DNA of 33,213 nt from Eubacteriales bacterium. Its GTDB lineage: Bacteria; Bacillota; Clostridia; Saccharofermentanales; UBA5734. The stretch's first letter is position 1. The number at the start of each line of letters is the position of its first letter. The stretch spans positions 11,448-44,660 of the forward strand of contig JAQVJP010000008.1 in assembly GCA_028695145.1 (NCBI GenBank), in the 5' to 3' direction. The notes under the pieces were generated by a model. That model had not been told where the DNA came from. It saw nothing but the letters and a program-made list of their open reading frames with translations, and did not search any database. Made by a program: the position numbers and the translations under genes. Positions 2,488 to 33,064 of the stretch are shown here, piece by piece.

Positions 2488-2516
2488 TTGTGATATTGTA
2501 AACTTGCTGTTAACAT
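2488..2516 (+). promoter_or_regulatory. Candidate sigma-A promoter for the small downstream gene
   Basis: TTGTGA at 2488-2493 and TAACAT at 2511-2516 are separated by 17 bases, a fair match (4 of 6 in each box) to the vegetative consensus. Transcription would start near 2523, only a few bases before the ATG at 2531, which favours the later start at 2588. The match is weak and the surrounding DNA is AT-rich, so chance is possible. Confidence 0.3.
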
Positions 2517-2587
2517 TTTAAACAGATACAATGGATTTGCATATTGTTTCGCGTCAGGAAATCAGGCATCTTTTATGGAGGTACGCC

Positions 2588-2830: not shown

Positions 2831-2885
2831 TCATCCACCAGATTTCACAGACCTGATTTTCCCACCAGAATACGCGTTTTATTAG

Positions 2886-2918
2886 AAGACCACGAAGCTT
2901 GCTGCTCCGTGGTCTTTT
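2886..2918. terminator. Bidirectional rho-independent terminator between convergent genes
   Basis: A 13-base stem (2886-2898 with 2904-2916, one mismatch) closes a five-base loop and is followed on the plus strand by TTTT at 2915-2918. It lies between the end of the small plus-strand gene and the end of the minus-strand sulfhydrylase gene, so it probably stops transcription from both sides. The U-tract is clearer on the plus strand; on the minus strand the stem is followed only by a mixed AT-rich run. Confidence 0.85.
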
Positions 2919-2954
2919 GCCGGTTTCTTATCCTTATAAATGATAGACTGAATT

Positions 2955-9773: not shown

Positions 9774-9785
9774 TTAAGTTTCTCC

Positions 9786-10607: not shown

Positions 10608-10637
10608 ACCTGATCAATCCTCTCACTAATTCATTCT

Positions 10638-13586: not shown

Positions 13587-13777
13587 GTTGTTACCCCTCC
13601 CGAATTTCGCAATTCTTTCAAAATCAAATTTCCCGTCAAATATGATTACAGCGTGTTTCCCTCTGATGATGTTTCCAAATTCTGATCTAAACAACTCAAA
13701 AAAGGAAATACACCCGGAACGACACGCCGCTTTAATAAATGTCGTATCAAAATACCATAATATTCAAATGAACAGCA

Positions 13778-14269
13778 TCAGCTATCAAGCAAAGCTCCAT
13801 ACTCTTCTTTTGTCAGTATACGGTCACAGTCAATCAGAAGTTTTATATCTTCCCCAACCTTGCCAATACCGTTTATGAACCTATTACTAAAGCCGGTTCT
13901 ACCATCAGGTGGCAGCTCAATATTATTGCCGTCTATATTAAGAACTTCAGAAACCTGATCAACAATTAGTCCAACAGATACTTCCCTGATATCAACTACT
14001 ATGATACAGGTTCTATCATGATACTCCTGAAGAGGTTTCTTGAAGCGGGCACGCATATCAAGAACAGGAATAATCTTGCCGCGCAGATTAATAATACCTC
14101 GTAGATATGACGGCATATCAGGCACTTCAGTAATCGATTGCATACCAATGATCTCAGTTACATATCTTATCTCAATACCATATGTTTCATCTCCGAGCTG
14201 AAATGTGAGGTACTTACCTTGCATACTATCTTCATCCATCAGTCTTTCCATTGTTCTATCTTCATGCAT
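13778..14269 (-). CDS. cheW: Chemotaxis coupling protein CheW
   Basis: The 163-residue protein is a single CheW-like SH3-type domain (about 17-155) that bridges chemoreceptors and the kinase CheA. Family hallmarks seen are YLTFQLGDETYGIEI near the N-terminus, the EVPDMPSYLRGIINLRGKII block, and the GLIVDQVSEVL segment. The first 15 residues are an extra hydrophilic leader; an internal ATG at residue 11 or 16 could also serve, but the ATG at 14269 is nine bases from a strong AAGGAGG that is made by the end of cheA. Only two bases separate it from the cheA stop, so translation is probably coupled. Confidence 0.96.
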   Translation of the reverse strand: MHEDRTMERLMDEDSMQGKYLTFQLGDETYGIEIRYVTEIIGMQSITEVPDMPSYLRGIINLRGKIIPVLDMRARFKKPLQEYHDRTCIIVVDIREVSVGLIVDQVSEVLNIDGNNIELPPDGRTGFSNRFINGIGKVGEDIKLLIDCDRILTKEEYGALLDS

Positions 14270-14271
14270 GA

Positions 14272-16596: not shown

Positions 16597-16608
16597 GATA
16601 ACACCTGC

Positions 16609-16962
16609 TTACAGTTTTGCCAGAGCGGCTATGACGGTTTCTTCCTTAAACGGTTTAACAATGAAGCCCTTAGCTCCAGACATAACAGCTTCCTTAACCA
16701 TTCCCTGCTGACCCATCGCGGTCATCATGACAATTTTAGCGTCGCTGTTTATCTGCATGATTGCTTTTAAAGCGGCAAGACCATCCATCTCTGGCATTGT
16801 AATATCCATAGTTACTATGTCAGGTTTTAGCTCATTGTATTTTACAACCGCTACCTTGCCATTTTCAGCTTCCCCAATCACGGAGTAACCGTTCTTCTCC
16901 AACATGTTTTTGATGGTAACACGCATAAACGCGGCATCATCTACGACCAAAACAGTTTTCAT
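16609..16962 (-). CDS. cheY: Chemotaxis response regulator CheY
   Basis: This 117-residue stand-alone receiver domain carries the acidic pocket D8/D9, the phospho-acceptor D53 in TMDITMPEMDG, the switch threonine in MMTA (T81) and the conserved lysine in VKPF (K103). Phosphorylated CheY binds the flagellar switch to change rotation. The start at 16962 is chosen because a GGGGG lies seven bases upstream; an ATG two codons earlier would be only one base from that site. It is the first gene of the chemotaxis operon, downstream of a candidate sigma-28 promoter. Its sequence resembles the short CheY of Firmicutes and Thermotoga more than the enterobacterial form. Confidence 0.96.
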   Translation of the reverse strand: MKTVLVVDDAAFMRVTIKNMLEKNGYSVIGEAENGKVAVVKYNELKPDIVTMDITMPEMDGLAALKAIMQINSDAKIVMMTAMGQQGMVKEAVMSGAKGFIVKPFKEETVIAALAKL

Positions 16963-17016
16963 GTTCATGCCCCCATAATAAATTCTTAGCACTGACCTTC
17001 AACCGGTCATATTATG

Positions 17017-18106: not shown

Positions 18107-18505
18107 TCAGATACTTGCGGTACCACCACCGCCGGTTTTCTGCTGTTTAATCATTTGCTCCCAAGTATCCCTGAGTTCACCAAGCATATTCTCAACATTA
18201 TCAAGCCGTTTAGTATCGAGATCAATATTCGCGGTTATCAATTCATTCAAAAAATAATCATAAAGAGCATACAATGAATCAGATATTTCATAATCAAAAT
18301 TAAGTGTTGCCATAAGCTCAGATACTATACTTTGTGCCTTCATCAAAGATGAATTTTTCTGTTCAAGAAGCTTCTCTTCTATTGCCAGACGAGCCAGGCG
18401 AACCTGTTTCAAACAGCCATCATATAACATCAGTACAAGCTCTCCTGGTCCTGCGGTCAAAACACTCTGATCACGATACTGATTAAACGCCTGATTAGTA
18501 TACAT
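18107..18505 (-). CDS. fliS: Flagellin export chaperone FliS
   Basis: The 132-residue protein matches FliS, which binds the disordered C-terminus of flagellin in the cytoplasm and prevents early polymerisation. The diagnostic parts are the N-terminal NQYRDQSVLTAGPGELVLML with YDGCLKQ, and the helix SDSLYALYDYFLNELITANI. The C-terminus is a short Gly-rich tail (KTGGGGTAS). The start follows a clear AAGGAG site about nine bases upstream. In Bacillus subtilis FliS also binds FliW, whose gene lies about 3.3 kb upstream here. Confidence 0.96.
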   Translation of the reverse strand: MYTNQAFNQYRDQSVLTAGPGELVLMLYDGCLKQVRLARLAIEEKLLEQKNSSLMKAQSIVSELMATLNFDYEISDSLYALYDYFLNELITANIDLDTKRLDNVENMLGELRDTWEQMIKQQKTGGGGTASI

Positions 18506-18549: not shown

Positions 18550-20067
18550 TTAAAAGGAAGCAATCTGCTGAGTCAGCCAGCTGCTCTGAGAATTAAGACT
18601 ACCCAAAGCGGTTTCCATCGCCGAGAATTTGCGCCAATACGATTCTTCTTTAGCGTACATATCATCCTGAAGCTTTAGAATTTTCTCAGCTACTTTGCCA
18701 ATATCCTGTTCAACCTTTAGCGAACTATAACTCGATACATAATCACTCATCGAGAGAGAAATCCTCTCCATAAAGCCCGAATTAGCTCGTTTAATTACCG
18801 CATCTTCAGAAGTCGAATCCTGCGCGAAAACAGCGGCTACATCATCTGGATTATTCTGAAGGGCTTCACGCAGTTTATCTTCATCAATAACTAATTTACC
18901 TTTATCTGCCCAACTGCCGGTTTTAATACCAATATCAAATAAACTCTTACCTACACCTTCAACTTTTTCATAAATGGCACTGCGCATATCGGATAACAAA
19001 CCGCTTATCTGACGATCATTACGCATCAGGCCGCTCTTGGCCATCTCTTCCCATTTCTCGATCTCTGACTCTGTCATCTCTTCTTTTTGCTCATCAGTCA
19101 GTGGTTCATAATCATACTGTATTTTCTCGTTAATTTTTTCATTAAGCGAATCAACAAGTTTATTATAATCTTCAACAAAAGTTTTGATTTTATCGACAAC
19201 ACTATTTACATCCTGACTTATGCCAAAGGATATAGGCTGATCTGTTGTTGTTTTCAAGTTAAAGGTAATACCATCGAGAGTAAATATGTTACTTTCCTGT
19301 TCAATAGTATAACCATCTACGCTCAAAATAGCGTTCTTACCAACCTCAACTGAGGTTGTATCAATTTTAAAGGCACTGGCATCAACACTATTATTAGCAA
19401 AAGCGTTACCACTCAAATTTTCAACATTTAAAGCAGAAGCAGTTCCTGTAATTTTTGATTCAATTTTAAAACCGCCGCTGATCGCGCTATAGGTCATATT
19501 AACACCAGCATCGCTATTACTAACCGTCCGCAACATATTATCCAAGGTAGATGTTTTATCAAAGGTAAAAGTCTGATCATTAATCTTAAAAGATATCTGA
19601 TCATTGACATCAAAAGCCAGAGCTGTATCAAGCTGCATCGAAATCGTTTCCAGAGTATCTGATCGATTGAGATTTTCTGTGCTGACACGGGATGCGCTGT
19701 TAACCTGCGCTGAACTTGCTAATTGTGTAATGCTTTTGATAATATGCGAACCCACAGATGCAGAACTGTTTGCTGATATCGAAACAGCGCTGCTGTCACT
19801 CATATCAACACTGTGAACTTTGAAAGCACTCTCAACATTCAAATTTTTATTTGACAAAACACTGGCATAACTATAGCGCAAATCATTGATTTGCTTATTG
19901 ATATCCTGCCGCATATCTCTGGACCACTCCAGTTTGGTTTTTTGGCGCAACACCTGATCTACACGTAATTGCTCAATTTTCATCAAACTCTTGACCATAG
20001 AATCTGTGTCCAGACCGGAGGAAATACCACTAATTCTCAACATAGAGCTCATATTATTAACTGTCAT
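18550..20067 (-). CDS. fliD: Flagellar filament cap protein FliD (HAP2)
   Basis: The 505-residue protein is the pentameric cap that folds exported flagellin at the filament tip. FliD_N is at about 5-105 (LRISGISSGLDTDSMVKSLM), the central hook-type IN-like repeats lie at about 160-290, and FliD_C at about 240-490. The C-terminal end is helical, with a terminal segment SLNSQSSWLTQQIASF typical of HAP2. The start at 20067 follows AAGGAGA by nine bases; an in-frame TTG-type extension to 20118 lacks a binding site and the family N-terminus. It leads an operon with fliS, the FliT-like gene and yaaR, and has its own promoter region containing both sigma-28-like and sigma-A-like elements. Flagellin lies immediately upstream, behind a strong terminator. 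Confidence 0.96.
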   Translation of the reverse strand: MTVNNMSSMLRISGISSGLDTDSMVKSLMKIEQLRVDQVLRQKTKLEWSRDMRQDINKQINDLRYSYASVLSNKNLNVESAFKVHSVDMSDSSAVSISANSSASVGSHIIKSITQLASSAQVNSASRVSTENLNRSDTLETISMQLDTALAFDVNDQISFKINDQTFTFDKTSTLDNMLRTVSNSDAGVNMTYSAISGGFKIESKITGTASALNVENLSGNAFANNSVDASAFKIDTTSVEVGKNAILSVDGYTIEQESNIFTLDGITFNLKTTTDQPISFGISQDVNSVVDKIKTFVEDYNKLVDSLNEKINEKIQYDYEPLTDEQKEEMTESEIEKWEEMAKSGLMRNDRQISGLLSDMRSAIYEKVEGVGKSLFDIGIKTGSWADKGKLVIDEDKLREALQNNPDDVAAVFAQDSTSEDAVIKRANSGFMERISLSMSDYVSSYSSLKVEQDIGKVAEKILKLQDDMYAKEESYWRKFSAMETALGSLNSQSSWLTQQIASF

Positions 20068-20132
20068 CTCTATCACTCTCCTTATTTGACTTTCCGGAAT
20101 TCCCAGAAAACGAAACACATGTACGATTACCG

Positions 20133-20265: not shown

Positions 20266-21363
20266 TTATCTCAGAAGCTGAAGGACACCCTGAGGAGCCT
20301 GATTAGCCTGAGCCAGCATAGCCTGAGCTGCTTGCTGGAGGATATTGTTCTTTGTGAATTCCATCATTTCCTTAGCCATGTCTACGTCACGGATTCGAGA
20401 TTCAGAAGCTTGGAGGTTCTCAGAAGAAGTATCTAAGTTCTTGATGGTGTGCTCTAATCTGTTTTGAAAAGCACCCAATTCTGATCTTTGGGTGGATACA
20501 GTATTAATTGCTGTATTCACAGCATCTACGGCAGCTTTAGCATTTGTGTTATTGTCCACATTTAGGCTACCTACACCCAATGTTGCCGCATCCATAGCAT
20601 CAATTGAAATAGTCAAACTTTCTTCTCCAGTAGTGTTTGCACCGATTTGAAGATTGACGGAACCTGTAGCATTCACATCGAAAGTATTATCAGCTGCTAC
20701 ATCTGCTAACTCCGAGTTTACAGTTAAGCTAATCCCAAATTGTCCAAAATTAACCTGTTTTGTTTCTAAACCAGTCGGAGCTGAACCAACATCAACCATG
20801 ACCGAATCAGTTCCATCACTAACAGTGATTTCGGTATCATTAGCAACAGTTATTGTATATGATCCAGCATCAGCACCTTGTAAGTTAATATCTGCAATAC
20901 CCGCTGCTACAAGACCTGTTCCTACGTTAGTAACTGAAGTTGCTAAATCTCCATTTAGAAGATTCTTTTCATTAAACTGTGTCGTCTCAGCGATTCTAGT
21001 AATTTCTGCCGATAGAGATTTCAACTCTTCGTTGATTGCTGATCTGTCTACCGTCTCATTAGTATCATTTGCCCCTTGAACTGCTAATTCTCTCATTCTC
21101 TGGAGTATTGAGTGAGTTTCGTTCAAAGCACCTTCAGCAGTTTGAATCAACGATATCCCGTCCTGCGCATTTCTTGAAGCTTGATTCAGACCACGGATCT
21201 GACCACGCATTTTCTCAGAAATAGCCAAACCAGCAGCATCAGCAGCAGCACCATTGATTCTGTACCCAGATGACAGTTTGCTCATTGATTTAGCACCAGC
21301 AGCGTTGCTAAGTCCCAATTGTCTGTGTGTGTTCATTGCCATCAAATTGTTGTTAATTCTCAT
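20266..21363 (-). CDS. hag: Flagellin
   Basis: The 365-residue flagellin forms the filament. The N-terminal D0/D1 region (about 1-140, MRINNNLMAMNTHRQLG start, LSSGYRINGAADAA-like core with an extra Ala) and the C-terminal D1/D0 region (about 280-365, with TIKNLDTSSENLQASESRIR and the QAPQGVLQLLR end) are both conserved. Between them lies a Thr/Val/Asp-rich, beta-type insert at about 145-270, longer than in the minimal Bacillus subtilis flagellin. There is no signal peptide, as expected for type III export. The start has AAGGAGG seven bases ahead. Nine of the first ten alanine codons are GCT, unlike the GCC/GCG-rich neighbours. The leader holds a CsrA-type hairpin, and the promoter is sigma-28-like. 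Only one flagellin gene is in the window. Confidence 0.98.
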   Translation of the reverse strand: MRINNNLMAMNTHRQLGLSNAAGAKSMSKLSSGYRINGAAADAAGLAISEKMRGQIRGLNQASRNAQDGISLIQTAEGALNETHSILQRMRELAVQGANDTNETVDRSAINEELKSLSAEITRIAETTQFNEKNLLNGDLATSVTNVGTGLVAAGIADINLQGADAGSYTITVANDTEITVSDGTDSVMVDVGSAPTGLETKQVNFGQFGISLTVNSELADVAADNTFDVNATGSVNLQIGANTTGEESLTISIDAMDAATLGVGSLNVDNNTNAKAAVDAVNTAINTVSTQRSELGAFQNRLEHTIKNLDTSSENLQASESRIRDVDMAKEMMEFTKNNILQQAAQAMLAQANQAPQGVLQLLR

Positions 21364-21583: not shown

Positions 21584-21838
21584 TCATATGTCTGTCTCAT
21601 TTTTATTAGATTTTTGATTGCCCTGCTGAGCTATATGACGAAGTAACGAAGCGTTAGACTGCACAGCCTCCTTGTTTGTTTGCCTTACTTCTTCAAGTAT
21701 CTCTGCACGCATTATTCGCAAACTCTTCGGGGCATCTATACCAACTCGCACTCGATCACCATCAATATCAACTATAGTTATTTTTACATCATCGCCCAAC
21801 ATAATGGTCTGGTTTTTTTGTCTTGTCAGTACCAGCAT
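21584..21838 (-). CDS. csrA: Translational regulator CsrA
   Basis: The 84-residue protein begins MLVLTRQKNQTIMLGDDVKI, the conserved CsrA N-terminus, with the RVGIDAPKSLRIMRAEI block that forms the second RNA-binding face. CsrA dimers bind GGA motifs in mRNA leaders and block translation. The start at 21838 is chosen because it gives the canonical N-terminus and puts AGGAGG nine bases upstream; an ATG three codons earlier sits directly on that site. It begins one base after the fliW stop (TGAGATG), so the two are probably coupled. The C-terminal tail (about 60-84) is a little longer than the enterobacterial form, as in other Firmicutes, where it helps FliW binding. Flagellin, the likely target, is the next gene. 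Confidence 0.97.
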   Translation of the reverse strand: MLVLTRQKNQTIMLGDDVKITIVDIDGDRVRVGIDAPKSLRIMRAEILEEVRQTNKEAVQSNASLLRHIAQQGNQKSNKNETDI

Positions 21839-21839
21839 C

Positions 21840-22289
21840 TCAGCCATCCTCCTCGCTCTTCTTGAGCAGAACCTCAAACACAGGCTGTCTGATCTGATAG
21901 TCATCACCTTCAGCGAGCACTTGACAACCCTTGCCTGCGACACTGTTTATCAATATGGGCGCGGCCAAATTGGCTGTCATCAAACTCAATTCTTCAGGTA
22001 TACGAGCTACTGCCAACACCAATAGATCCTCCTCTTTATCAAGAGAGATGTCATTGAAGACCTCATCATCTATAGTCGGAGAATATGCTGGATCAACATC
22101 AAATGGACTTATTACAGGCAACGCAATATCTTCCTCTAACGCCTGCAGCCAAAGAATCGGTTTTGTTTGTTCAATTATTACCAGAAGAAATTCTCGCAGA
22201 TTTTCGAAACCTGGCAAACCTGATTCAAACTTGATTATCTTATCTTGTTCAACTGTAATTTCTCCGAAGAGCTTGGTGTTAAGCTGCAT
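21840..22289 (-). CDS. fliW: Flagellar assembly factor FliW (CsrA antagonist)
   Basis: The 149-residue protein matches FliW: MQLNTKLFGEITVEQDKIIK at the start, FESGLPGFENLREFLLV, the PFDVDPAYSP motif and LTANLAAPILIN. FliW binds CsrA allosterically and relieves repression of flagellin; free flagellin binds FliW in turn, giving a homeostatic loop. The start at 22289 has GGAG eight bases ahead; an open reading frame continues 44 codons upstream but overlaps the preceding gene and is not family-like. It is 46 bases downstream of the DUF6470 gene and one base upstream of csrA. Confidence 0.97.
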   Translation of the reverse strand: MQLNTKLFGEITVEQDKIIKFESGLPGFENLREFLLVIIEQTKPILWLQALEEDIALPVISPFDVDPAYSPTIDDEVFNDISLDKEEDLLVLAVARIPEELSLMTANLAAPILINSVAGKGCQVLAEGDDYQIRQPVFEVLLKKSEEDG

Positions 22290-22335
22290 ATCGTTTTCTC
22301 CAATTTCCGCCGTTTCAACGACATGATATTTCTGT

Positions 22336-22950
22336 TCAGACAGTTCGATCCAGTTTATTAACGCGTTTTGGCACTTGAGGCTCAAAACGTGGCTTCTCCT
22401 GTGGCTTAAACTTAATATCAATACTCGGGTACTGCACCATATTTATTTCAACTCTACCCGGCTCATATTGCATATCAAGCATTTTATCCATAATCCATTC
22501 AAGTGAGAATTCATGGGCAGTCCACTCAATTTCCATCTGCCCTGGCTCCCAATTGATCTGAGCCGGTGGCAGAGCTTTGACCGTCAGCTGCACTGGCGCG
22601 CGTGCTCGGTCAGCTATTATCTGGCTGATCGTACTGTGGCGCTGGTAAATCGCAGCCATACGGTTGCCTTCTTCAGCGATCCGGCCAATTGCTTCAAGAC
22701 CTATTTGAAAACTCTGATCTGCGACTTCAGCGGTCCTTTGAAATATGGACATGCGGTCAAGCAGAGCGTTTCTCTGAGACCGGTCTATCTGCATAGTCGG
22801 TAGTCTATGGTGTATCCGCATTTCGGGCGGCTTATTTCTGATTCTAAACTGTGGCCTTCCTACTCGCTGAATATTCAATTTTGCCGGTATCGTCCTGATT
22901 TCCATGACTGGACGCTGCCGGGTAATCTCCAACTGCTGCACGGTGCTCAT
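22336..22950 (-). CDS. DUF6470 family flagellar-locus protein (YviE-like)
   Basis: The 204-residue protein matches the DUF6470/YviE type found between flgL and fliW in many Firmicutes; its function is not established. It opens with short repeated segments rich in MEI/IRxxP patterns (MEIRTIPAKLNIQR, PEMRIHHRLPTMQIDRS), followed by a helical stretch (about 65-110) and more beta-type repeats with INWEPGQMEIEW and an EPGRVEINMVQYPSIDIKF ending. There is no signal peptide or membrane segment. The start is placed at 22950, five bases after AGGG. Its position between flgL and fliW matches the Bacillus subtilis order flgL-yviE-fliW-csrA-hag. Confidence 0.85.
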   Translation of the reverse strand: MSTVQQLEITRQRPVMEIRTIPAKLNIQRVGRPQFRIRNKPPEMRIHHRLPTMQIDRSQRNALLDRMSIFQRTAEVADQSFQIGLEAIGRIAEEGNRMAAIYQRHSTISQIIADRARAPVQLTVKALPPAQINWEPGQMEIEWTAHEFSLEWIMDKMLDMQYEPGRVEINMVQYPSIDIKFKPQEKPRFEPQVPKRVNKLDRTV

Positions 22951-22979: not shown

Positions 22980-23906
22980 TTAACGCAGGAAATCTACCAA
23001 CGATGGTACTATTACTTTACTACCGATAGATAATGCCGCGTTATAAACAGCTTCCGACATCTTGAAATGCATAATAACTTCACTTGTATCAATATCCTCA
23101 ATATTGCCACGAACGCCCTCGTAATTTATAGCGTCCTTGCCATACCTGTTGCTGATAAGCTCAAGTCTGTTGGTTCTTCCACCGAGCTCGGCAGTCATCG
23201 CCAGAATCTCATTCTGTTTGTCCTGGAATTTAGTTGCCATGCCGCTGATTTCTTCACTGCTGCCATCATTTTCCAAGAGGTCGATCATTTCATCAAACAA
23301 ATTCATTATATTTTTTTCGCCGGTCCCAGCCACTTCATGTCCGGGAAAAGTAACCGGCATCTCAAGACCTCTTCCCACCTCGAAGCTCAAATGCTGAAGT
23401 GGCAAAGTATTAGGGTCAGTTGTTATAAGATTGATATTATTGTAAGTCACATCACCATTGCCATCCATGACAAACGGCGCTGTATTAGTATTATAACCAC
23501 CGAAGAGATATTTGCTGCCATACGTAGAATTCAAGGTTTGAAAAACATGCTCCTTAAGTTGCTTAACATCAGCACTAATTGCTGTTTTCTCACCATCAGT
23601 CAATACACCATTAGCAGCCTGGATCGCACGTTCATAGGCAGATTTAATCGTTTCGTTGATATCCATAATCGCTGTTTCAACATGAGTAACCCAGGTCTGA
23701 GCATCATCTACATTGCGCTGAAACTGATCAAGATCCCGAATTTTAGCGCGGATATCAATTGAAGTAACAACACTTACCGGGTCATCCGAAATCTTCGTGA
23801 TTTTTCGATTGCTTGACAGCTGACTGTTATACATATTCATGGTTTTCATATTTCTATTGAGATTACTCAGAAAATTACTGATCATGATCCCGTTAGTTAC
23901 GCGCAT
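22980..23906 (-). CDS. flgL: Flagellar hook-filament junction protein FlgL (HAP3)
   Basis: The 308-residue protein resembles a flagellin at both ends: MRVTNGIMISNFLSNLNRNM at the N-terminus with SDDPVSVVTSIDIRAKI, and a C-terminal helical segment ending SKVIVPSLVDFLR. It forms the second junction ring between hook and filament, after FlgK. Length is usual for Firmicutes. The start follows GAGAGGTG by six bases and lies 18 bases after the flgK stop. FlgN, encoded two genes upstream, is the likely export chaperone. Confidence 0.96.
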   Translation of the reverse strand: MRVTNGIMISNFLSNLNRNMKTMNMYNSQLSSNRKITKISDDPVSVVTSIDIRAKIRDLDQFQRNVDDAQTWVTHVETAIMDINETIKSAYERAIQAANGVLTDGEKTAISADVKQLKEHVFQTLNSTYGSKYLFGGYNTNTAPFVMDGNGDVTYNNINLITTDPNTLPLQHLSFEVGRGLEMPVTFPGHEVAGTGEKNIMNLFDEMIDLLENDGSSEEISGMATKFQDKQNEILAMTAELGGRTNRLELISNRYGKDAINYEGVRGNIEDIDTSEVIMHFKMSEAVYNAALSIGSKVIVPSLVDFLR

Positions 23907-23924: not shown

Positions 23925-25436
23925 TCAGCGGCCGACAAGCCCCGTTTTATTTATAAGCACATCAAGCATTTCATCTATAGCTGTTACAGCTCTGGCGGCA
24001 GCTGAATAGCTATGCTGATACTTGATCATATTAGTCATTTCTTCGTCCAGAGATACACCTGACAGAGACATACGCTGTGTATCAACACTGCTTTGCATAA
24101 CTTCCTGACTCTCTTGCATTTTGTTTGTATGAGAGATCTCGACAGCCATGAAACCAATTAAACTCTTCATGAAACTGTTGAAACTGCCGATTCCATTGCC
24201 TATATCATTTCGGTCAAACATAGCAATCATATCTTTGGCATTTTCATTATTACCCTGCTCATACATATTGGCTTCAATTTCCGCGCCTGATGCCGCTATT
24301 TTATACACATCTTCTTTTATCATGTTGTCTACAGCAAAATTAGCGGCAGTAATATTGGCATAATCGCCGCCTGGTATATCGAAGAAACTTACACCTGTTT
24401 CTGAGGCGCTGCCAATTGGCATTGTCCAGCCCTGTTGATGAACCGCGTTAAATTCACTAGCCAGATTTCTGGCAAAATGATTAAGTTGATCAACTACCCA
24501 GGGAATACCCATGTTGTCACTGGTATTGCCATCGCGCAGATCAAGCAGACTCTTAAGCGAACCACCTGCCATATCGACAGCAGTACCTGCAGCAGCACCA
24601 TCAGCCCATTGAACTTCAAACATATCTGTCGGCAAACCAGTAGGCGGATTTGGCAGAGGGGATATCGGAGTGCTTACAGCCTGCAGCTTGTTTACACCGG
24701 CATGATCAACCAGCATCTGCCCTCCGATGGAAATCTGCAGCTGATTATCACTGTTGGTTGTATAACTTATATCAACTATTCCGGACAACTCATCCAGATA
24801 GACATTTCTCTTATCATGTAGATCATTAGCCTTCTGGCCGCTTAATTCATAACGCGCTATCTGTACGTTCAGATCGGCTATCGACTGAGCGAGATCATTA
24901 ATTTGATTAGTTTTAACTTCAACTTGTACATTAAGTTCACTCTGTTTGGAGTTAAGTTGCTGAAAATAATGATTAAAAGTCTCAGTCATCTTAAGCGCGT
25001 TTTGCAACATATTAGTTCTGTATTCTTTGTTAACAGGATCTTTGCTAACTTCCTGAATACTATCTGTAAAGTCTGTAATAGCAGCAGTAATACCTGTTTC
25101 GCTAAGTTCATCGAATAATGATTCAACATAAGCCAAACCGTCCGCACGCTCATTCCAGTAATTAAGTTGAGTGTTTTCTCTTCTGAACTGGCGATCCAGA
25201 AAACCACTGCGCACTTGTTCTACAGTTATTATTTTAGCCCCGGCGCCAACATTACCGGCAGCACTTAAACCAAAACGATATGTTCCGGCACCAGGTTCAA
25301 TCGCGCTTATAGCAAGCCGTTGTCGTGTATATCCGGTTGTATTGGCATTCGCAATATTATGCCCGGTAACATCAATCGCTTTTTGACTGACGCTCATGCC
25401 TTTTCTTGCAATTTCCAATCCATAAAAAGTACTCAT
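23925..25436 (-). CDS. flgK: Flagellar hook-filament junction protein FlgK (HAP1)
   Basis: The 503-residue protein starts MSTFYGLEIARKGMSVSQKA followed by the rod/hook signature GHNIANANTTGYTRQ, and ends with the conserved YQHSYSAAARAVTAIDEMLD and a short INKTGLVGR tail. It forms the first junction ring on the hook. The middle region (about 160-400) is a variable domain. The start is six bases after the flgN stop and has only a weak binding site (GATGTGAT), so translation may depend on coupling to flgN. Confidence 0.96.
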   Translation of the reverse strand: MSTFYGLEIARKGMSVSQKAIDVTGHNIANANTTGYTRQRLAISAIEPGAGTYRFGLSAAGNVGAGAKIITVEQVRSGFLDRQFRRENTQLNYWNERADGLAYVESLFDELSETGITAAITDFTDSIQEVSKDPVNKEYRTNMLQNALKMTETFNHYFQQLNSKQSELNVQVEVKTNQINDLAQSIADLNVQIARYELSGQKANDLHDKRNVYLDELSGIVDISYTTNSDNQLQISIGGQMLVDHAGVNKLQAVSTPISPLPNPPTGLPTDMFEVQWADGAAAGTAVDMAGGSLKSLLDLRDGNTSDNMGIPWVVDQLNHFARNLASEFNAVHQQGWTMPIGSASETGVSFFDIPGGDYANITAANFAVDNMIKEDVYKIAASGAEIEANMYEQGNNENAKDMIAMFDRNDIGNGIGSFNSFMKSLIGFMAVEISHTNKMQESQEVMQSSVDTQRMSLSGVSLDEEMTNMIKYQHSYSAAARAVTAIDEMLDVLINKTGLVGR

Positions 25437-25442: not shown

Positions 25443-25943
25443 TCACATCGTTTCATCAAATAGATTTGCCGCCTGAGACTTTTTTGCGTCCAGGCTGCCA
25501 TCTGCGGAATAGGCCGTCGTTTCTCTGGTTTGGGTCGCTGTATCAAAAAGAAAGTCAATATAACTCAAATGCACCTCAATTAACTTGGCATTTACTTGAT
25601 TTTGCCGATCAAGATTTAATAACAATTCACGCAAATCTCTCTGAATTTTTCGCAAAGAATCAGCCGTATCAGCCGATAGAGATTCAGGCCATTTTGAAAC
25701 AGTTACATTTTCCGGTAGAATATTGAATACACCTGAAATTTCTTTAATAAGATTATTCCGATCATTTTCTGCCTCAGAAACCAGTTCAAGAAGACGCTCT
25801 TCTTCAGAAACAATTCTATCAAGCTGTTCCGTGTCGCCATCAACTATGGCCTTGCGTTTGGAATCAGAATAATCAAGAAGCTGCTTATAAACAGCTTCTT
25901 CCTTAACAAGTAAACTCAGCAATCGGTCAGCGTAAATACTCAT
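25443..25943 (-). CDS. flgN: FlgN-family flagellar export chaperone
   Basis: The 166-residue, helical and acidic protein fits FlgN, the chaperone for FlgK and FlgL. It shows the pattern LLVKEEAVYKQLLDYSDSKR, an acidic middle helix (LDRIVSEEERLLELVSEAE) and a helical C-terminal half with NLDRQNQVNAKLIEVHLSYI, followed by a disordered tail. The gene sits between flgM and flgK, as in Bacillus subtilis, 15 bases after flgM. The binding site (AGCAGG) is moderate. Sequence conservation is low in this family, so position adds much to the call. Confidence 0.88.
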   Translation of the reverse strand: MSIYADRLLSLLVKEEAVYKQLLDYSDSKRKAIVDGDTEQLDRIVSEEERLLELVSEAENDRNNLIKEISGVFNILPENVTVSKWPESLSADTADSLRKIQRDLRELLLNLDRQNQVNAKLIEVHLSYIDFLFDTATQTRETTAYSADGSLDAKKSQAANLFDETM

Positions 25944-25958: not shown

Positions 25959-26252
25959 TCAAACAATAACGTCGAGACCGACTTGCTCAACCATGCGCTG
26001 GCTGATAACCTCAGCGTTTGGTCTATACTGGCCAGTTCTAAGCTGCTCTCTAATGGCGTTAACCTTCTCTGCGTTAAATTCATCAGACTGTTGAGCTTCC
26101 TTGAGCATATTAGCGTATTCAATTCCCTGTTTTGACAATTCAACTCTATCAGATTGCGTAGACAATCTTGAATCTGAACTCTGAGCCTGATGACGCGAAT
26201 TATTCTCATAACGCTTAATCGCGCTGGCACTAATATTAGGATCTATTCTCAT
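25959..26252 (-). CDS. flgM: Anti-sigma-28 factor FlgM
   Basis: The 97-residue protein has an N-terminal polar, disordered half (MRIDPNISASAIKRYENNSR) and a C-terminal helical half with VELSKQGIEYANMLK and the sigma-binding part EKVNAIREQLRTGQY followed by EVISQRMVEQV. FlgM binds sigma-28 (encoded here as fliA) until the hook is complete and FlgM is exported. The start has a strong AGGAGG seven bases ahead. A sigma-28-like promoter lies about 70 bases upstream, which would give the negative feedback known in other bacteria. A second open frame in the same stretch (25940-26230) is a shadow. Confidence 0.94.
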   Translation of the reverse strand: MRIDPNISASAIKRYENNSRHQAQSSDSRLSTQSDRVELSKQGIEYANMLKEAQQSDEFNAEKVNAIREQLRTGQYRPNAEVISQRMVEQVGLDVIV

Positions 26253-26319: not shown

Positions 26320-26346
26320 ATATCGAACAGATTCTCAATTTCTTGA
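26320..26346 (-). promoter_or_regulatory. Candidate sigma-28 promoter of the flgM operon
   Basis: The minus strand reads TCAA, 15 bases, TTCGATAT: three of four at -35 and six of eight at -10. It overlaps the end of the yvyF-like gene and lies about 70 bases upstream of flgM. Confidence 0.6.
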
Positions 26347-26787
26347 GTGCATTCTTTCATTAAAATCTCGCTTATCGTCTTTAATTCTATTCTTTTGCGT
26401 TCTATCAAACTTTTTTTCTCTGTTTGTGGCAGCAATTGCATCACCTGCAATCGATTTTTGAGCCTGTCTGAGTTCACTACTAAGTTGTGCCTGACAACTG
26501 TCGCAATAGCGCCCAGTATTTATTGACGTACCACATCTCTCACAGCTTAAGCCGCCAGCTGAACTGTCAAGTTCAAGTCTGCCTTCACGCAGAAGCTGCA
26601 AAATTGTACGGTCATTAACTTCTGTAGCATCAGAGATTTCCTTGATACCTGCATGAGGATTCTCATATATATAATCACGTACTACGCGATATTCCCGGTC
26701 AATCTCATCTATACATCGCGGACAATATGGACTTGCGACATAATTGAAGAGTTTTCTGCATCTGCGGCATTGACGTACATTGTTCAT
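26335..26787 (-). CDS. YvyF-like flagellar operon protein with two zinc-ribbon motifs
   Basis: The 150-residue protein matches the Firmicute flagellar operon protein of the YvyF type, encoded directly upstream of flgM. It carries two Cys4 clusters, C7/C10/C22/C25 and C82/C85/C95/C98, flanking a small helix-turn-helix-like segment (about 44-66, AGIKEISDATEVNDRTILQL). The C-terminal 45 residues are basic and likely disordered. A regulatory role is plausible; the molecular target is not known to me. The start has CGAGGT eight bases ahead and lies 31 bases after the flhP stop. Confidence 0.87.
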   Translation of the reverse strand: MNNVRQCRRCRKLFNYVASPYCPRCIDEIDREYRVVRDYIYENPHAGIKEISDATEVNDRTILQLLREGRLELDSSAGGLSCERCGTSINTGRYCDSCQAQLSSELRQAQKSIAGDAIAATNREKKFDRTQKNRIKDDKRDFNERMHSRN

Positions 26788-26818: not shown

Positions 26819-27580
26819 TTAGCGGCGAATCTCATTAGCTGTCGCTTTCATATCGTCAGTTGTTGTAATAGCGCGGCTAAGAAGTGAATACGCACGTTGC
26901 GCCTCAATTAACTGCGTCATTTCCTCAGCCAGATCAACATTTGACCCCTCAACCGCACCCTGTCTAATCTGATAATCAGCGGCCAAAGCAGCCTCTCCAG
27001 AAGCGTCACTCTCTGCCCAGGTTCTGCTGCCGGCCGCAGACAAACCCTGCGGATTTACAAAATCAAACAATCCAAGATTCGCGATATTTTGACCATTATT
27101 TGTAATATCACCGGCACTGCCTATCGTAAGGTTATTAAGCGGTTCAGCTGATATAATCTGCTGCAGGTTCTGGTCAAGCACATAACGGCCATTACCGTCT
27201 ACAAGAAAATGCTGCCCGTTCTCTTCACTTGTCTGGAAGGCTCCATCGCGAGTATACAACACCTGACCATCGGCATCCTGAACAGCGAAGAAAGCCATAC
27301 CACTGATAGCCGCGTCAAGATTTCTACCTGTTTCCATCAACGGGCCCTGCATCAAGCTGGTTGTAGTCGCGCCTGTCAGCACACCGGTACCTCGCAATAA
27401 GTTCTCTTCACTTTGTGGTTCAGCCGGATTACGCATAGCCTGATACATAGTATCTTCAAAATCGACGCGCTTACGCTTGAATCCCTGAGTATTCACATTG
27501 GCAATATTATCTGCCAATGTGTCAATTTTGTTTTGTTGAGCTACCATGCCGGCAGCGGCTGTATATAAGGATTGTGACAT
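26819..27580 (-). CDS. flhP: Flagellar rod/hook-basal-body protein, FlgG family (FlhP-like)
   Basis: The 253-residue protein shows the rod-protein N-terminus SLYTAAAGMVAQQNKIDTLADNIANVNTQGFKRKRVDF and the matching C-terminus VEGSNVDLAEEMTQLIEAQR with SLLSRAITTTDDM. Such proteins polymerise into the distal rod through their paired terminal helices. In Bacillus subtilis two paralogues, FlhO and FlhP, fill the FlgF/FlgG roles. This gene is the second of the pair and most like FlgG, so FlhP is used. A full-length FlgG alignment would be about 260 residues. It starts 17 bases after flhO. Confidence 0.9.
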   Translation of the reverse strand: MSQSLYTAAAGMVAQQNKIDTLADNIANVNTQGFKRKRVDFEDTMYQAMRNPAEPQSEENLLRGTGVLTGATTTSLMQGPLMETGRNLDAAISGMAFFAVQDADGQVLYTRDGAFQTSEENGQHFLVDGNGRYVLDQNLQQIISAEPLNNLTIGSAGDITNNGQNIANLGLFDFVNPQGLSAAGSRTWAESDASGEAALAADYQIRQGAVEGSNVDLAEEMTQLIEAQRAYSLLSRAITTTDDMKATANEIRR

Positions 27581-27597: not shown

Positions 27598-28350
27598 TCA
27601 AACTCGGCCAAGATCATTGACAGTTTTGCCAAGTTTCTCATCCATAATCTTGATCATACGCTGATTAATTTCATAACTTCGCTGAATTTCTATCATATTT
27701 ACCATCTGATTTGAGAGATCTACGTTTGACATCTCAATAAAACCTTGTCTGACCTGAGCTTGTTCTGCAGGTTGTACAACACCCTCCTGAAGGCTGTAGA
27801 GGTTACCGCCTTGTTTGCGCATTGTAGTTGTATCTTCAACAGTTACGAGCTGCAAACGATCAATTAACTGTCCATTTGCCTGAACATTTCCATTAAGATC
27901 AACGGCAAAATCGGTGCTGCCGACATTGATTTCCCCTTGCTCACCCAACACTCTGTCACCTGCAGCCGTAGTCAGGAAGCCATCCGCGTCAACCTGGAAG
28001 TTCCCAGCTCTCGTATAGCGTTCACCGTCTGCTGTATTAACAGTAAAAAAAGCATTTCCAAGCAACGCGAGATCAGTATTGCTCTTGGTTTCCTGCAAGG
28101 AACCAACATTAAAATTTGTAATGACTTCGTCAATATGAATACCAGTATTAAGAGGACCAACATCAGCTGTTCGTTGTACGATTGACGGATCATTCATTCG
28201 TTCAATCATCAGATCATCAAAAGATCTCGATAAAAGATTATCCTGCTTATAACCTACAGTTGTCGCGTTTGCCAGATTGTTGATAACAACATCCATTCTT
28301 TTCTCTTGAGTCAACATTCCGGTGGTCGCTGTGTATAAACCTCTGATCAT
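27598..28350 (-). CDS. flhO: Flagellar rod/hook-basal-body protein, FlgF/FlgG family (FlhO-like)
   Basis: The 250-residue protein has the rod signature MIRGLYTATTGMLTQEKRMD with INNLANATTVGYKQ, and a C-terminal MSNVDLSNQMVNMIEIQRSY block. It is a paralogue of the next gene, and the pair is the FlhO/FlhP set of distal rod proteins. N-terminal MIRGLYTATTGM is closer to FlgF/FlhO. The start has GAGAGGATG about six bases ahead. It lies 48 bases after fliA, across a small hairpin. Confidence 0.88.
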   Translation of the reverse strand: MIRGLYTATTGMLTQEKRMDVVINNLANATTVGYKQDNLLSRSFDDLMIERMNDPSIVQRTADVGPLNTGIHIDEVITNFNVGSLQETKSNTDLALLGNAFFTVNTADGERYTRAGNFQVDADGFLTTAAGDRVLGEQGEINVGSTDFAVDLNGNVQANGQLIDRLQLVTVEDTTTMRKQGGNLYSLQEGVVQPAEQAQVRQGFIEMSNVDLSNQMVNMIEIQRSYEINQRMIKIMDEKLGKTVNDLGRV

Positions 28351-28398: not shown

Positions 28399-29133
28399 TT
28401 AATTATATGGCAGTACCTTTTTCATCATGCTTCTTAGTTTAACAATAATACTTGAATGAATCTGTGATATTCTTGACTCCGTCAAATCAAGCACAGCACC
28501 TATCTCTTTAAGTGTGAGCTCATCGTTATAGTATAGATTCAGAATTATCTGTTCCCTTTCAGATAACTGCTTGATAGACTCTGCCAGAATTTGTTTGAAC
28601 TCTCTTGACTCGAGTTCACGATCAAATGTTGGATCTGTTTTAAACTGATACTCATCCGTAACAGCATCTGTAAGCAGTTCATCAAGGTGCAGCACACTGA
28701 GGAAATGAGCTTCACCAAATATTGATTGCAGATCATCGAGCGGCATCTGCAAATAGTCAGCGATTTCCTGATCGGCAGGAGCACGGCCTAATTGCTGAGC
28801 AAGATCATCCGCCGATTGCTCAACCTGCTTGATACGGGTTCTGACGTGCACGGGAGCCCAATCCTGTTGTCTCATATAATCTATGACCGCGCCGCGGATC
28901 CTAATCTGCGAATATGTCTCGAATTTCACTTCGCGCTCAGGGTCGAATTTATCTATAGCATCAATCAATCCAAGCACGCCACAGCTGATTAGATCATCAT
29001 AATCATGATACGTTCTACTGGCAGGGAACAATCTGCCGACAACACGCTTAACCAGCGAGATGTAATGCATTATCAGCTCATTTCTTGCTTCCTGGTCACC
29101 ATTTTGTTTATATGCTCTCCAGAGTTCATCCAT
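28399..29133 (-). CDS. fliA: Flagellar RNA polymerase sigma factor FliA (sigma-28/sigma-D)
   Basis: The 244-residue sigma factor has region 2 at about 20-95 (YDDLISCGVLGLIDAIDKFDP, then YSQIRIRGAVIDYMRQQDW), region 3 at about 100-150 and region 4 at about 185-238 with the helix-turn-helix LTLKEIGAVLDLTESRISQI. These are hallmarks of the FliA/WhiG group, which reads TAAA-N15-CGAT-type promoters, and four such candidates exist in this window. The start overlaps the flhA stop by eight bases (ATGGATGA), so the sigma factor is probably made in step with the export gate. FlgM, encoded about 2.9 kb downstream, should inhibit it. Confidence 0.97.
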   Translation of the reverse strand: MDELWRAYKQNGDQEARNELIMHYISLVKRVVGRLFPASRTYHDYDDLISCGVLGLIDAIDKFDPEREVKFETYSQIRIRGAVIDYMRQQDWAPVHVRTRIKQVEQSADDLAQQLGRAPADQEIADYLQMPLDDLQSIFGEAHFLSVLHLDELLTDAVTDEYQFKTDPTFDRELESREFKQILAESIKQLSEREQIILNLYYNDELTLKEIGAVLDLTESRISQIHSSIIVKLRSMMKKVLPYN

Positions 29134-31171
29134 TGCTTATGCTCACCATCCCCTCCGCATGTATTTCGATGGCTGCGTCTATTTCATTATATGACAAAAC
29201 AGCCAGTTCCGGGGACATCTGCTCGACCATTTTCTTAAAATGTGGCCTGACAGCCGGTGAAGTAAGCACAACCGGATTTATACCGACCGACATCATACGT
29301 TCAAGCGCTGAGCGTAAGTTGTGTAGGAGCTTCTGAATCTGATCCGGTGAAAGCGCGACAAAAGAGCCCTGCTCTGTTTGTCTTAGCCTTTCGATTATCA
29401 GTTGTTCCAGCTGAGGGTCAAGTGTTATAACCCTCGCTATGCCATCCCCAACAAAACGTTTACTAATAGTTCTCTTTAGTCTTTGTCGGCAATATTCTAT
29501 GAGCATGTCGGGATTACGTGTAGCACCCGAATAGTCTGATAATGTTTCAAGAATTGTACCCATATCTCTGATCGATACACCTTCTCTTAGCAAGCCCGAC
29601 AGCACCTTTTGCACCTCACCAAGCGTGAAGAGTTTGGGAATAACTTCATCTACCAGCGCCGGCTGTGACTGTTTGAGATTGTCCACCAGGGTTTGAACCT
29701 GCTGACGATCGAGCAGCTCATTAGCATGGCGCTTCAGTAATTCTGATAGATGTGTGGCCAGAACCGACGGTGGATCAACAATTGTATAGCCGGCAAGCTC
29801 TGCCTTCTCTCGTTCAGAACGTGAAATCCATAATGCCGGCAAACCAAACGCAGGTTCCACAGTCTCAATGCCTTTTATCGGCAAGCGGCTCTCTTCCGCG
29901 TTCATAGCCAGATAATGATCAGCCATAATTTCACCGCGCGCTATTTCCTCGCCGCGAATTCGTACGACATACTCATTAGTTTTTAGTAGAACATTATCAC
30001 GCAGACGTATGCCTGGAATGATAAGACCAAGATCCATAGCACATTGGCGCCTGATCATTACTACTCGATCTGACAGATCTCCCCCCTGATTGGCGTCAGC
30101 CAGCGGTATCAATCCATAGCCGAACTCAAGTTCGATCGGGTCAACGCCCAGAAGTGAAACAACATTTTCCGGTTTTCGGCTCTCACGCGCGATTTCCTCA
30201 ACCGCGGTATCAGCAGCAGGAACGGCCTGTGCGTTGAGAATATTACGTCTGATAATCGTCGCCAGCACAACCATAAATATTCCGATCATCCAAATCGGCA
30301 GTTTAGGCAGTCCGGGAATCAGACTAAGTGCTGTGATTATGACACCGGCGGCGTAGAGCACAGTCGGCTGGCTAAACAGCTGGCTTGAGATTTCAGCGCC
30401 AAGATTATCTTCAGACGCGGCTCTGGTAACAATAATACCTGTAGCTGTTGAGATCATAAGAGCAGGTATCTGACTGACCAAGCCATCACCAACTGTAGCC
30501 AATGTATATTTGGCTATTACTTCGTCAATTGCCAGATCTGAAGTCATCATGCCGATGACAATACCACCAACAATGTTAATAATCGTAACAAGAATCGAAA
30601 CAATAGCGTCGCCTTTTACAAATTTACTGGCACCGTCCATAGCGCCGTAAAAATCAGCTTCCCGCTGAATCTTCGAGCGGCGGACTTTTGCCTGTTGTTC
30701 ATCAATAAGGCCGGAATTTAGGTCAGCATCGATTGCCATCTGTTTACCAGGCATAGCATCGAGAGTAAAACGAGCCGCTACTTCAGCTACTCGCTCAGAA
30801 CCCTTGGTAATAACCAGAAACTGAATAATAATGATGATAGCGAATATGATAACACCGACAACAATATTACCGCCGATTACAAAACCACCAAAAGTCTTAA
30901 TAACCGCTCCGGCTTCACCATTATTGCCAAGTATAAGTCTGGTTGATGATATGTTCAGAGACAGCCTGAACAATGTAAGTATCAACAACAGCGGTGGGAA
31001 AACAGAGAAATCAAGCGCTTCCTTGGTAAACAGCGACAGGAGCAGAACTGTAACAGCCAGAGAAATATTGACAACCAGCAGGAAGTCAAGAAATACAGGG
31101 CTGAGAGGAACGATAATTAATATGATAACAACGAATACAACTCCGGCTATCAGAATGTCGGCAAATTTCAT
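29126..31171 (-). CDS. flhA: Flagellar type III export gate protein FlhA
   Basis: The 681-residue protein has about eight membrane segments in its N-terminal half (about 5-310) and a cytoplasmic docking domain in the C-terminal half (about 340-681). The conserved FHIPEP loop is seen as MPGKQMAIDADLNSGL at about 140-155, followed by READFYGAMDGASKFVKGDAI. FlhA forms the nonameric ring that docks chaperone-substrate complexes and uses proton-motive force. Its start overlaps the flhB stop by one base (TGATG), and its end overlaps fliA. The length is usual. Confidence 0.98.
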   Translation of the reverse strand: MKFADILIAGVVFVVIILIIVPLSPVFLDFLLVVNISLAVTVLLLSLFTKEALDFSVFPPLLLILTLFRLSLNISSTRLILGNNGEAGAVIKTFGGFVIGGNIVVGVIIFAIIIIIQFLVITKGSERVAEVAARFTLDAMPGKQMAIDADLNSGLIDEQQAKVRRSKIQREADFYGAMDGASKFVKGDAIVSILVTIINIVGGIVIGMMTSDLAIDEVIAKYTLATVGDGLVSQIPALMISTATGIIVTRAASEDNLGAEISSQLFSQPTVLYAAGVIITALSLIPGLPKLPIWMIGIFMVVLATIIRRNILNAQAVPAADTAVEEIARESRKPENVVSLLGVDPIELEFGYGLIPLADANQGGDLSDRVVMIRRQCAMDLGLIIPGIRLRDNVLLKTNEYVVRIRGEEIARGEIMADHYLAMNAEESRLPIKGIETVEPAFGLPALWISRSEREKAELAGYTIVDPPSVLATHLSELLKRHANELLDRQQVQTLVDNLKQSQPALVDEVIPKLFTLGEVQKVLSGLLREGVSIRDMGTILETLSDYSGATRNPDMLIEYCRQRLKRTISKRFVGDGIARVITLDPQLEQLIIERLRQTEQGSFVALSPDQIQKLLHNLRSALERMMSVGINPVVLTSPAVRPHFKKMVEQMSPELAVLSYNEIDAAIEIHAEGMVSISNG

Positions 31172-32244
31172 CAGCTCTGTCCTCCTTTCACCTTGGCTAC
31201 ATAGACCAATATTTCGGCCACTGCCTGATACAAGTCAAGCGGTATCTGTTGACCTATTTTACATTGTTTGTATAGAGCCTGTGCAAGCGGTCTGTTCTCA
31301 ACTGTTATGATTCCATGCTCCGCTGCACGTTCTTTTATCTTCTGAGCCACATAGTTCTTGCCTTTTGCCAGAATCACGGGCGCGCTGTCCTTACTGTTAT
31401 CGTAGCGCAGCGCTATAGCATAGTGTGTCGGATTGGTGATAATTACGTCTGCCTGGGCGACATCCGACATCATACGCAGCATACCCATTTGACGTTGTAT
31501 CTGACGAATTCTCCCTTTTACCTGCGGATTACCTTCGGTTAATTTGTACTCGTCTTTGACCTCCTGTTTCGTCATCTTGAGATCTTTCTCAAATTTCCAC
31601 CATTGGTAGAGATAATCAAACAGAGCCAACACAATCAACACGGCACAGGCGCGAAAAGCCAGATTAAACAGCATTTCGCTTATCATGGCCAGGGCAACAG
31701 GCAAACGATAACCCATCAGCGACGGCAGACGCCGCAAATCATTATAGATGATATCCCAGGTCATTGCCAGGATAATACCTATTTTACCAAGCGACTTGAT
31801 GAGCTCCACTATAGCTCTACTTGAGAACATGCGCTTGGCGCCCGAGATCGGGTTAATCTTCTCAGGTTTGATCTTCAGTGTCTTGGTGGTAAACAAAAAA
31901 CCTGTCTGTAAGAGATTGACAACTACACCCGCGAGCATGGTAAAAGCAAGCAGCGGCGAAATTATCAGCGCGACATCCAGCAGCAGGCGTTGGAAAAACT
32001 GCATAGCGGACAAGACAGTCAGTGTCTCATTACCAATATCCGCACCGGGCAGGAACTCATAGAATACATCCATTATACCGTGCCCCATGTTACCTATAAG
32101 GAGTTTAAAAACGAACACCGTACTTATCAGCAGCAGCGCGACGCTCATATCCTGGCTGCGCAGGACATTCCCCTGCTCACGTTCGTCACGCCGCTTCTTA
32201 GGTGTCGCCTTCTCAGTTTTTTCTCCACCGCCACCACCTGGCAT
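31171..32244 (-). CDS. flhB: Flagellar export switch protein FlhB
   Basis: The 357-residue protein has four membrane segments (about 35-55, 88-112, 150-168, 188-215) and a cytoplasmic domain (about 218-357). The autocleavage site NPTH is at 271-274, in IITNPTHYAIAL; cleavage between N and P switches export from rod/hook to filament substrates. The N-terminus (EKTEKATPKKRRDEREQG) is the family's amphipathic signature, preceded here by a short Gly run. It starts four bases after fliR, with GGGGGG in the end of fliR as the binding site. Confidence 0.98.
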   Translation of the reverse strand: MPGGGGGEKTEKATPKKRRDEREQGNVLRSQDMSVALLLISTVFVFKLLIGNMGHGIMDVFYEFLPGADIGNETLTVLSAMQFFQRLLLDVALIISPLLAFTMLAGVVVNLLQTGFLFTTKTLKIKPEKINPISGAKRMFSSRAIVELIKSLGKIGIILAMTWDIIYNDLRRLPSLMGYRLPVALAMISEMLFNLAFRACAVLIVLALFDYLYQWWKFEKDLKMTKQEVKDEYKLTEGNPQVKGRIRQIQRQMGMLRMMSDVAQADVIITNPTHYAIALRYDNSKDSAPVILAKGKNYVAQKIKERAAEHGIITVENRPLAQALYKQCKIGQQIPLDLYQAVAEILVYVAKVKGGQS

Positions 32245-32248: not shown

Positions 32249-33064
32249 TTATCCCCCCAATCCGGCGATCATATTCTCAGTTGCCTGGAACATTTCATTA
32301 AACACATTGTCCAGAAAATTCAGGTAGAATGGCTGCATCGCAAACAGCACTACCAGTCCAATTATTATTTTCAGGGGTATACCAACCATATATGCGTGAA
32401 AATTAGGTACAGCACGCATCAGCACACCCATAGTTACCTCACTGACAAGTGCAGAGGCAATTATCGGCAGAGCAAGCGTCACAGCCAGCATAACCATAAG
32501 AAAAAAAGCCTCCATAGCCACAGTTGGCAGCACAGGATTAAGTCGAACTTCACCAACAGGTATCCGCTCATAAGTCAACCCAAGAATTCTGATCAGCTTA
32601 AGATGTCCATCAAGTGTAAAAAAATAAACAGTCATGACTATATTAAGAAGCATGCCGGAATAAGTTGTCTGCGTACCCATCGACGGATCAAAAACAGCAC
32701 CCATACCTATGCCAAGCTGAATATCAATTACCTGCCCGGCTATAGCCGGCAAAGCGAAAAACACTATAGTAATATAGCCGATGATAAGTCCGACCAAAAC
32801 CTCACCCATTACCAATAGAACATACGTAATTGATGGTTCTGAAGTAAATATCTCTGCCGGTGGATATAACTGAATAAACATGACAGACAAAATGAGAGCA
32901 AGGCCCAATCTGAATCTCACCGGAAGATTGCGGCGGCCAAAAATTGGTGAAAGCACGAAAAAACCAGATGATCTTACCAGTACCAGCAAATAATAAGGCC
33001 AATACTGCAAATTTAATTGCGGAAAGCTGTTTATCGCTGTCATTACCTTCAAAACAGTATCCAT
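32249..33064 (-). CDS. fliR: Flagellar export gate protein FliR
   Basis: The 271-residue hydrophobic protein fits FliR, part of the FliPQR core of the export gate. Visible features are the N-terminal YLLVLVRSSGFFVLSPIFGRRNLPVRFRLGLAL block, several membrane segments, the IDIQLGIGMGAVFDPSMGTQ loop, and a C-terminal PNFHAYMVGIPLKIIIGLVVL segment. It starts eight bases after the fliQ stop, with a GAGGAG site that overlaps that stop. Confidence 0.96.
   Translation of the reverse strand: MDTVLKVMTAINSFPQLNLQYWPYYLLVLVRSSGFFVLSPIFGRRNLPVRFRLGLALILSVMFIQLYPPAEIFTSEPSITYVLLVMGEVLVGLIIGYITIVFFALPAIAGQVIDIQLGIGMGAVFDPSMGTQTTYSGMLLNIVMTVYFFTLDGHLKLIRILGLTYERIPVGEVRLNPVLPTVAMEAFFLMVMLAVTLALPIIASALVSEVTMGVLMRAVPNFHAYMVGIPLKIIIGLVVLFAMQPFYLNFLDNVFNEMFQATENMIAGLGG

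Follow-up and report, generated by a model that had tools for sequence, protein, structure and literature searches.

The flagellar gene cluster analysed here carries neither flhF nor flhG between flhA and fliA, the site that these genes usually occupy being intact and closed, and no copy of either was found elsewhere in the host assembly. We consider it probable that this lineage has genuinely lost the FlhF/FlhG switch and that the organism would set the number of its flagella through FliA/FlgM and FliW/CsrA and place them free of FlhF and FlhG. The absence is not peculiar to the host: both genes are missing from seven of the eight flagellated members of its family and from 18 of the 155 flagellated genomes surveyed in the class.

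The flhA-fliA junction and the host genome

The window, by which we mean the whole stretch of 33,213 nucleotides, comes from contig C43 of the host metagenome-assembled genome (MAG) G000 (2.77 Mb in 223 contigs; 98.68% complete, 2.36% contamination), and its last base is the contig end, shortly past fliR. The preliminary description had reported an eight-base overlap of flhA and fliA that leaves no room for flhF or flhG, and this is exact: on the minus strand the two genes share the 8 nt ATGGATGA, which hold the start codon of fliA (ATG) and the stop codon of flhA (TGA). G001, another MAG of the host genus, carries the identical overlap (locus L087, flhA 1094-3139 and fliA 3132-3866), so the join did not arise by faulty assembly. 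In the flhA-flhF-flhG-fliA kind of operon flhF lies directly 3′ of flhA; in the host it does not.

Table 1. Features of the window, listed in their order along the minus strand
Feature	Position	Strand	Basis or remark
fliR	32249..33064	-	Pfam Bac_export_1
flhB	31171..32244	-	Pfam Bac_export_2, E 1.5e-129
flhA, export gate, 681 aa	29126..31171	-	Pfam FHIPEP, E 1.2e-270
Overlap of flhA stop and fliA start, site where flhF/flhG would lie	29126..29133	-	ATGGATGA; same in G001
fliA, sigma-28-type factor, 244 aa	28399..29133	-	Pfam sigma-70 r2/r3/r4
FlgF/FlgG-type rod gene, copy 1	27598..28350	-	Pfam Flg_bbr_C + Flg_bb_rod
FlgF/FlgG-type rod gene, copy 2	26819..27580	-	Pfam Flg_bbr_C + Flg_bb_rod
YvyF-like flagellar-region protein	26335..26787	-	TIGR03826, E 4.8e-31, below curated cut-off
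flgM, anti-sigma-28; candidate for number control	25959..26252	-	Pfam FlgM
flgN	25443..25943	-	Pfam FlgN
flgK	23925..25436	-	Pfam FlgK_D1
flgL	22980..23906	-	TIGR02550, above cut-off
fliW; listed ORF exceeds FliW domain	21840..22421	-	Pfam FliW, E 5.5e-34
csrA; domain at ORF residues 36-87	21584..21943	-	Pfam CsrA, E 4.6e-22
Flagellin	20266..21363	-	NCBIfam flagellin models, below cut-offs
fliD	18550..20118	-	NCBIfam FliD models, below cut-offs
fliS	18107..18505	-	TIGR00208, above cut-off
cheY, cheA, cheW, chemoreceptor gene, cheR, cheB	8682..16992	-	

Between the entries of Table 1, a DUF6470 gene follows flgL, and a weak FlgN-like ORF and a DUF327 ORF separate fliS from cheY. The csrA gene, whose true start is probably downstream of the listed one, lies immediately 3′ of fliW (the pair spanning 21584-22421), between flgL/DUF6470 and flagellin. 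A second host contig, C48, carries a FliG gene, and the ORFs beside it look, from gene order and N-termini without a family scan, like fliF, fliH, fliI, fliJ, fliK, flgD, flgE, motA and motB. As far as the contigs allow, the genes for the flagellum are otherwise complete across the window cluster and C48.

The preliminary description had also raised the possibility that flhF and flhG had moved elsewhere. The FlhF model TIGR03499 gave four matches in the G000 assembly, none above cut-off, two of them on contig C218 (model positions 112-286 and 113-286) and two short. We rejected the cut-off (174) as a sole criterion, the FlhF of the family member G017 scoring 130 bits; the FlhF call rests instead on N-terminal coverage and on a profile, A1, made from 26 FlhF sequences of named loci, and a second profile, A2, was made from 23 FlhG sequences. 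In G000, A1 (391 positions) matched just two proteins, both on C218 and both in the GTPase half alone (positions 107-388 and 109-388; frames of 466 and 304 aa); their length, order and neighbours lead us to read them as Ffh and FtsY. In other genomes of this search, complete FlhF proteins were matched from position 1, at 326-456 bits. The best A2 match in G000 was a partial, ParA-like one of 60 bits on C219; in genomes that possess a true FlhG, that protein scored 302-414 bits. Since TIGR03499, A1 and A2 found no copy of either gene anywhere in the assembly, relocation is unsupported and, as far as that assembly allows, excluded.

Gene order in the host family and across the class

Flagellated members of the host family were found among 98 genomes through PF00771, which gave full matches in eight (G000, G001, G002, G004, G011, G016, G017 and G020). 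In all but G017, fliA is the next gene after flhA, the two overlapping by 8 or 4 bases or standing 11 to 146 bases apart, and FlgF/FlgG-type genes lie 3′ of fliA wherever the contig extends far enough; the comparison with close relatives that the preliminary description had proposed thus bears out the adjacency in seven of eight genomes. A2 found no FlhG-level match in any of the eight, the best being one of 96 bits to a 433-aa frame in G016. All are fragmented MAGs, and the family-wide absence therefore rests on agreement among genomes.

In G017 (59% complete), a 600-aa FlhF-like ORF lies between flhA and fliA and overlaps each by 4 bases. Relative to the FlhF consensus, DTYR is replaced by DYQR and DTAG by DTPG, and the GxxGVGKT loop is kept. 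A second G017 contig repeats flhF-fliA in related form, and the pair (L096:7778-9580 and L102:2-1183) would represent two strains or two copies. Because of the low completeness and the two flhF-fliA contigs, which make strain mixing possible, the absence of FlhG from G017 is weak. Two MAGs labelled Oscillospiraceae carry the genes in different combinations: the genome of locus L007 encodes FlhF and FlhG, and that of L006 encodes FlhF (L006:9209-11115) without FlhG.

Two readings would make the absence in the host an apparent one. That the window derives from a MAG leaves room for an assembly chimera or a deletion artefact at the flhA-fliA join, but the overlap shared with G001 and the direct adjacency in G002, G016, G004, G011 and G020 reduce its probability to almost nothing. 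The genes might instead lie in unassembled gaps, the assembly being in 223 contigs and the flagellar contig ending just past fliR, or might have diverged too far for detection, FlhF being capable of strong divergence here, as in G017. We regard this as quite improbable, given the completeness of the assembly, the intact and closed site, the concurrence of seven of the eight family members and the fact that profile A1 still caught the divergent G017 protein, N-terminal part included.

The class survey was an even draw of 393 genomes, with a completeness of at least 90% requested, of which 155 had FlhA above the cut-off; G361, with a weak FlhA match, was left out. At thresholds set after the score gaps had been seen (E ≤ 1e-50 for FlhF, E ≤ 1e-60 for FlhG), with four (FlhF) or six (FlhG) first-look candidates scored per genome, 132 of the 155 encode both proteins, 18 neither, five FlhF only and none FlhG only (five against zero, p 0.06 before allowing for kinship). 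The 18 genomes with neither come from ten families and include Acetobacterium-like complete chromosomes. The flhA region was fetched for 16 of them, G000 and G002 being already known, and in all 16 flhA is followed by fliA and then by a FlgF/FlgG-type gene, the contig of G133 ending within the first rod gene. The host cluster is of this flhA-fliA-flgF-flgG kind.

Among 80 named FlhA loci, flhF follows flhA in 59, flhA and fliA are adjacent in 17, with the gene order of the host cluster, and four are unreadable; the genomes of three of the latter (L018, L045 and L068) have both genes on other contigs and that of L076 has neither. Profile searches found FlhF and FlhG in none of the genomes of the 17 loci with adjacent flhA and fliA. 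For most named loci with flhF, the scoring as having both genes rests on the locus and not on a genome search, and it was assumed for L055, whose contig ends in flhF. The premise of the preliminary description, that most Firmicute operons hold flhF and flhG between flhA and the sigma factor gene, stands as regards the presence of both genes in 132 of 155 flagellates and the position of flhF in 59 of 80 loci; fliA, however, is often distant from flhG, with che genes frequently intervening.

Several genomes in the survey depart from these patterns. FlhF without FlhG was seen in G149, G159, G272, G314 and G316, and G186 encodes FlhF and FlhG and has no FlhA match. Second FlhG-like proteins occur on other contigs in G129 (C100), G186 (C51), G406 (C59), G420 (C89) and G473 (C221), at 314-324 bits and in frames of 384-424 aa; four of these five genomes belong to family f9.

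Trees of the flagellar genes

Our trees describe flagellar genes, not species. In FlhA trees of 88 and 81 rows the host family groups with L006 and L007 (support 90 in the 81-row tree), and in a tree of FlhB, FlhA and FliA together it does so at 98/97, apart from a large clade without FlhF and FlhG. That clade, which comprises 28 rows of the 81-row FlhA tree and includes Acetobacterium, Sedimentibacter and Enterocloster, does not contain the host family; since the family groups with L006 and L007, its likeness to the large clade looks convergent. Further separate rows without the two genes are G133/G165 and, beside G374, which has both, G494 with G431/G495. Because such rows are scattered in the FlhA tree, loss probably happened several times. 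The 81-row tree left out L051, L068, L071, L075, L076, L080, L081 and L083 (long branch, outside the phylum, or contig end after flhA), and 19 rows with both FlhF and FlhG were also removed, thinning crowding; the FlhF tree left out L071, L075, L080 and L083.

All five flagellated genomes of genus group g95 in the class draw resemble the host in having flhA and fliA adjacent and no FlhF or FlhG. We assign g95 to the Acetobacterium type because an Acetobacterium locus falls among its members in the FlhA tree, and since this type lies in a separate clade from the host, at least one loss was independent.

Within the host family, the three-gene tree places G017 inside the genomes without flhF, and holding these seven in one clade cost 24 log-likelihood units (p-AU 0.0065, an optimistic value because the constrained group was named after the FlhA tree had been seen). 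This test rejects the idea that the absence of flhF arose only once; the family probably lost the gene on more than one occasion, and did so after losing flhG. The FlhF tree unites the G017 protein with those of L006 and L007 (support 98/91), its branch measuring 2.95 changes per column, and we read this protein as a FlhF that appears to have been kept vertically and to be eroding; alternatively, G017 could have regained flhF by transfer.

If the cluster had been acquired from a lineage already devoid of flhF and flhG, no loss in the host family would need to be invoked. Such a lineage exists in the 28-row Clostridia clade, with the same flhA-fliA-flgF-flgG order, but the three-gene tree sets the family with the flhF-bearing L006 and L007 and apart from that clade, and G017 keeps a flhF of the L006/L007 kind; we find acquisition highly improbable. 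We judge it unlikely that FlhF and FlhG were replaced by some protein not yet recognised, such as a ParA/Soj-type ATPase or a landmark peculiar to the host. ParA-like ATPases do occur in G000 (60 bits, C219), and Soj-like genes lie in or near flagellar regions lacking FlhF and FlhG in other Clostridia (L022, L062, L069 and L072). The flagellar cluster of the window, however, contains no ParA/Soj-type or similar gene, and the genomes of the host family share no additional gene between flhA and fliA.

Flagellar number and placement

Other spatial factors were sought in the same genomes. MinD (TIGR01968) was above cut-off in none of the eight flagellated family members, so that MinD-based control of flagellar number, as reported for E. 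coli, lacks its MinD here. Of the other genomes, those of L040 and L050 passed the cut-off and those of L006 and L007 did not; MinD was therefore probably gone before the host family arose. DivIVA/GpsB (PF05103, E ≤ 0.001) was likewise matched in none of the eight, a weaker negative than that for MinD because DivIVA-type proteins are short and variable, and was matched in the L006, L007 and L050 genomes. Among the 18 class genomes without FlhF and FlhG, MinD is above cut-off in seven, a near match occurs in two, and nine have none at that level. We place no weight on a link between loss of MinD and loss of FlhF/FlhG: nine of the 18 genomes, compared with none of eight comparators, had no match at MinD level (Fisher p 0.023), but five of these nine come from a single genus group, and the comparator set was small and of our own choosing.

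Under the preferred reading, a real loss, the ancestral order in the host family would have been flhA-flhF-flhG-(pilZ)-fliA. The flhG gene would have been lost first; flhF would next have evolved fast, as the G017 protein suggests, and vanished in several branches, leaving flhA and fliA to abut and the flagellum itself retained. FlgM, FliW and CsrA have known roles elsewhere, and by analogy those of the window are likely brakes on filament number, which would probably be governed by FliA/FlgM and FliW/CsrA. Basal bodies would be inserted without a cue from FlhF/FlhG, MinD or DivIVA/GpsB. Because no known placement cue remains without these proteins, unguided or shape-set insertion seems most likely, and a scattered or shape-dependent arrangement of flagella would be the expected outcome. 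A bolder proposal, which we advance tentatively and with more doubt than belief, is that the entire set of proteins known to Firmicutes for distinguishing cell pole from cell middle (FlhF, FlhG, MinD and DivIVA/GpsB) was shed together, that flagella are placed without a protein landmark of known type or by an undescribed one, and that a path on which FlhG goes before FlhF was repeated in several branches of the Clostridia.

Loss of FlhF and FlhG is a known kind of loss, here in a new setting; a literature search, with most subscription papers outside its reach, returned no report of their absence in Clostridia. The flagellar cluster of Bacillus subtilis has FliA/FlgM and FliW/CsrA, and the host cluster, also Gram-positive, has them too; the FlhF/FlhG/GpsB pattern control of B. 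subtilis differs from the host, in which FlhF, FlhG and DivIVA/GpsB are undetected. Caulobacter positions its flagella by polar determinants of its own, and none are known for the host. Like the host, Caulobacter crescentus is a flagellate without FlhF and FlhG (PMC12826062 and PMC7064773). The peritrichous enterics E. coli and Salmonella resemble the host in combining a complete flagellar system with the absence of both proteins; according to a recent review (PMC12826062), they are said to have gained a betaproteobacterial flagellar cluster by transfer, and MinD can replace FlhG in E. coli. For the enterics, then, a transfer is reported and E. coli keeps MinD, whereas in the host the genes appear to have been lost step by step in vertical descent, with neither MinD nor DivIVA/GpsB detected. 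Among peritrichous bacteria, B. subtilis is described as the exception in having FlhF and FlhG (PMC7064773).

Whether flagellation without FlhF and FlhG is regulated or random is a question raised by that review (PMC12826062). Lineages that lack FlhF, FlhG and MinD together offer a clean test, and the same gap in Acetobacterium-like genomes means that the question could be addressed in organisms that can be grown. Acetobacterium is described as having one or two subterminal flagella, and if it truly places them so, it would be a striking case of placement without FlhF and FlhG. For A. woodii, one paper mentions that cells occasionally bear a single subterminal protrusion, which may be a flagellum (PMC11282840). 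The persistence of FlhF without FlhG bears on the statement of the review that the two genes consistently occur as a pair (PMC12826062).

Finally, Soj/ParA-like ATPases lie within or just after flagellar regions lacking FlhF and FlhG in other Clostridia (L022:9094-9888, L062:14783-15562, L069:12411-13211 and L072:15735-16067). The blastp label "flhG" on these ParA matches was set aside, and we read them as Soj/ParA-like proteins that are possible stand-ins for FlhG.
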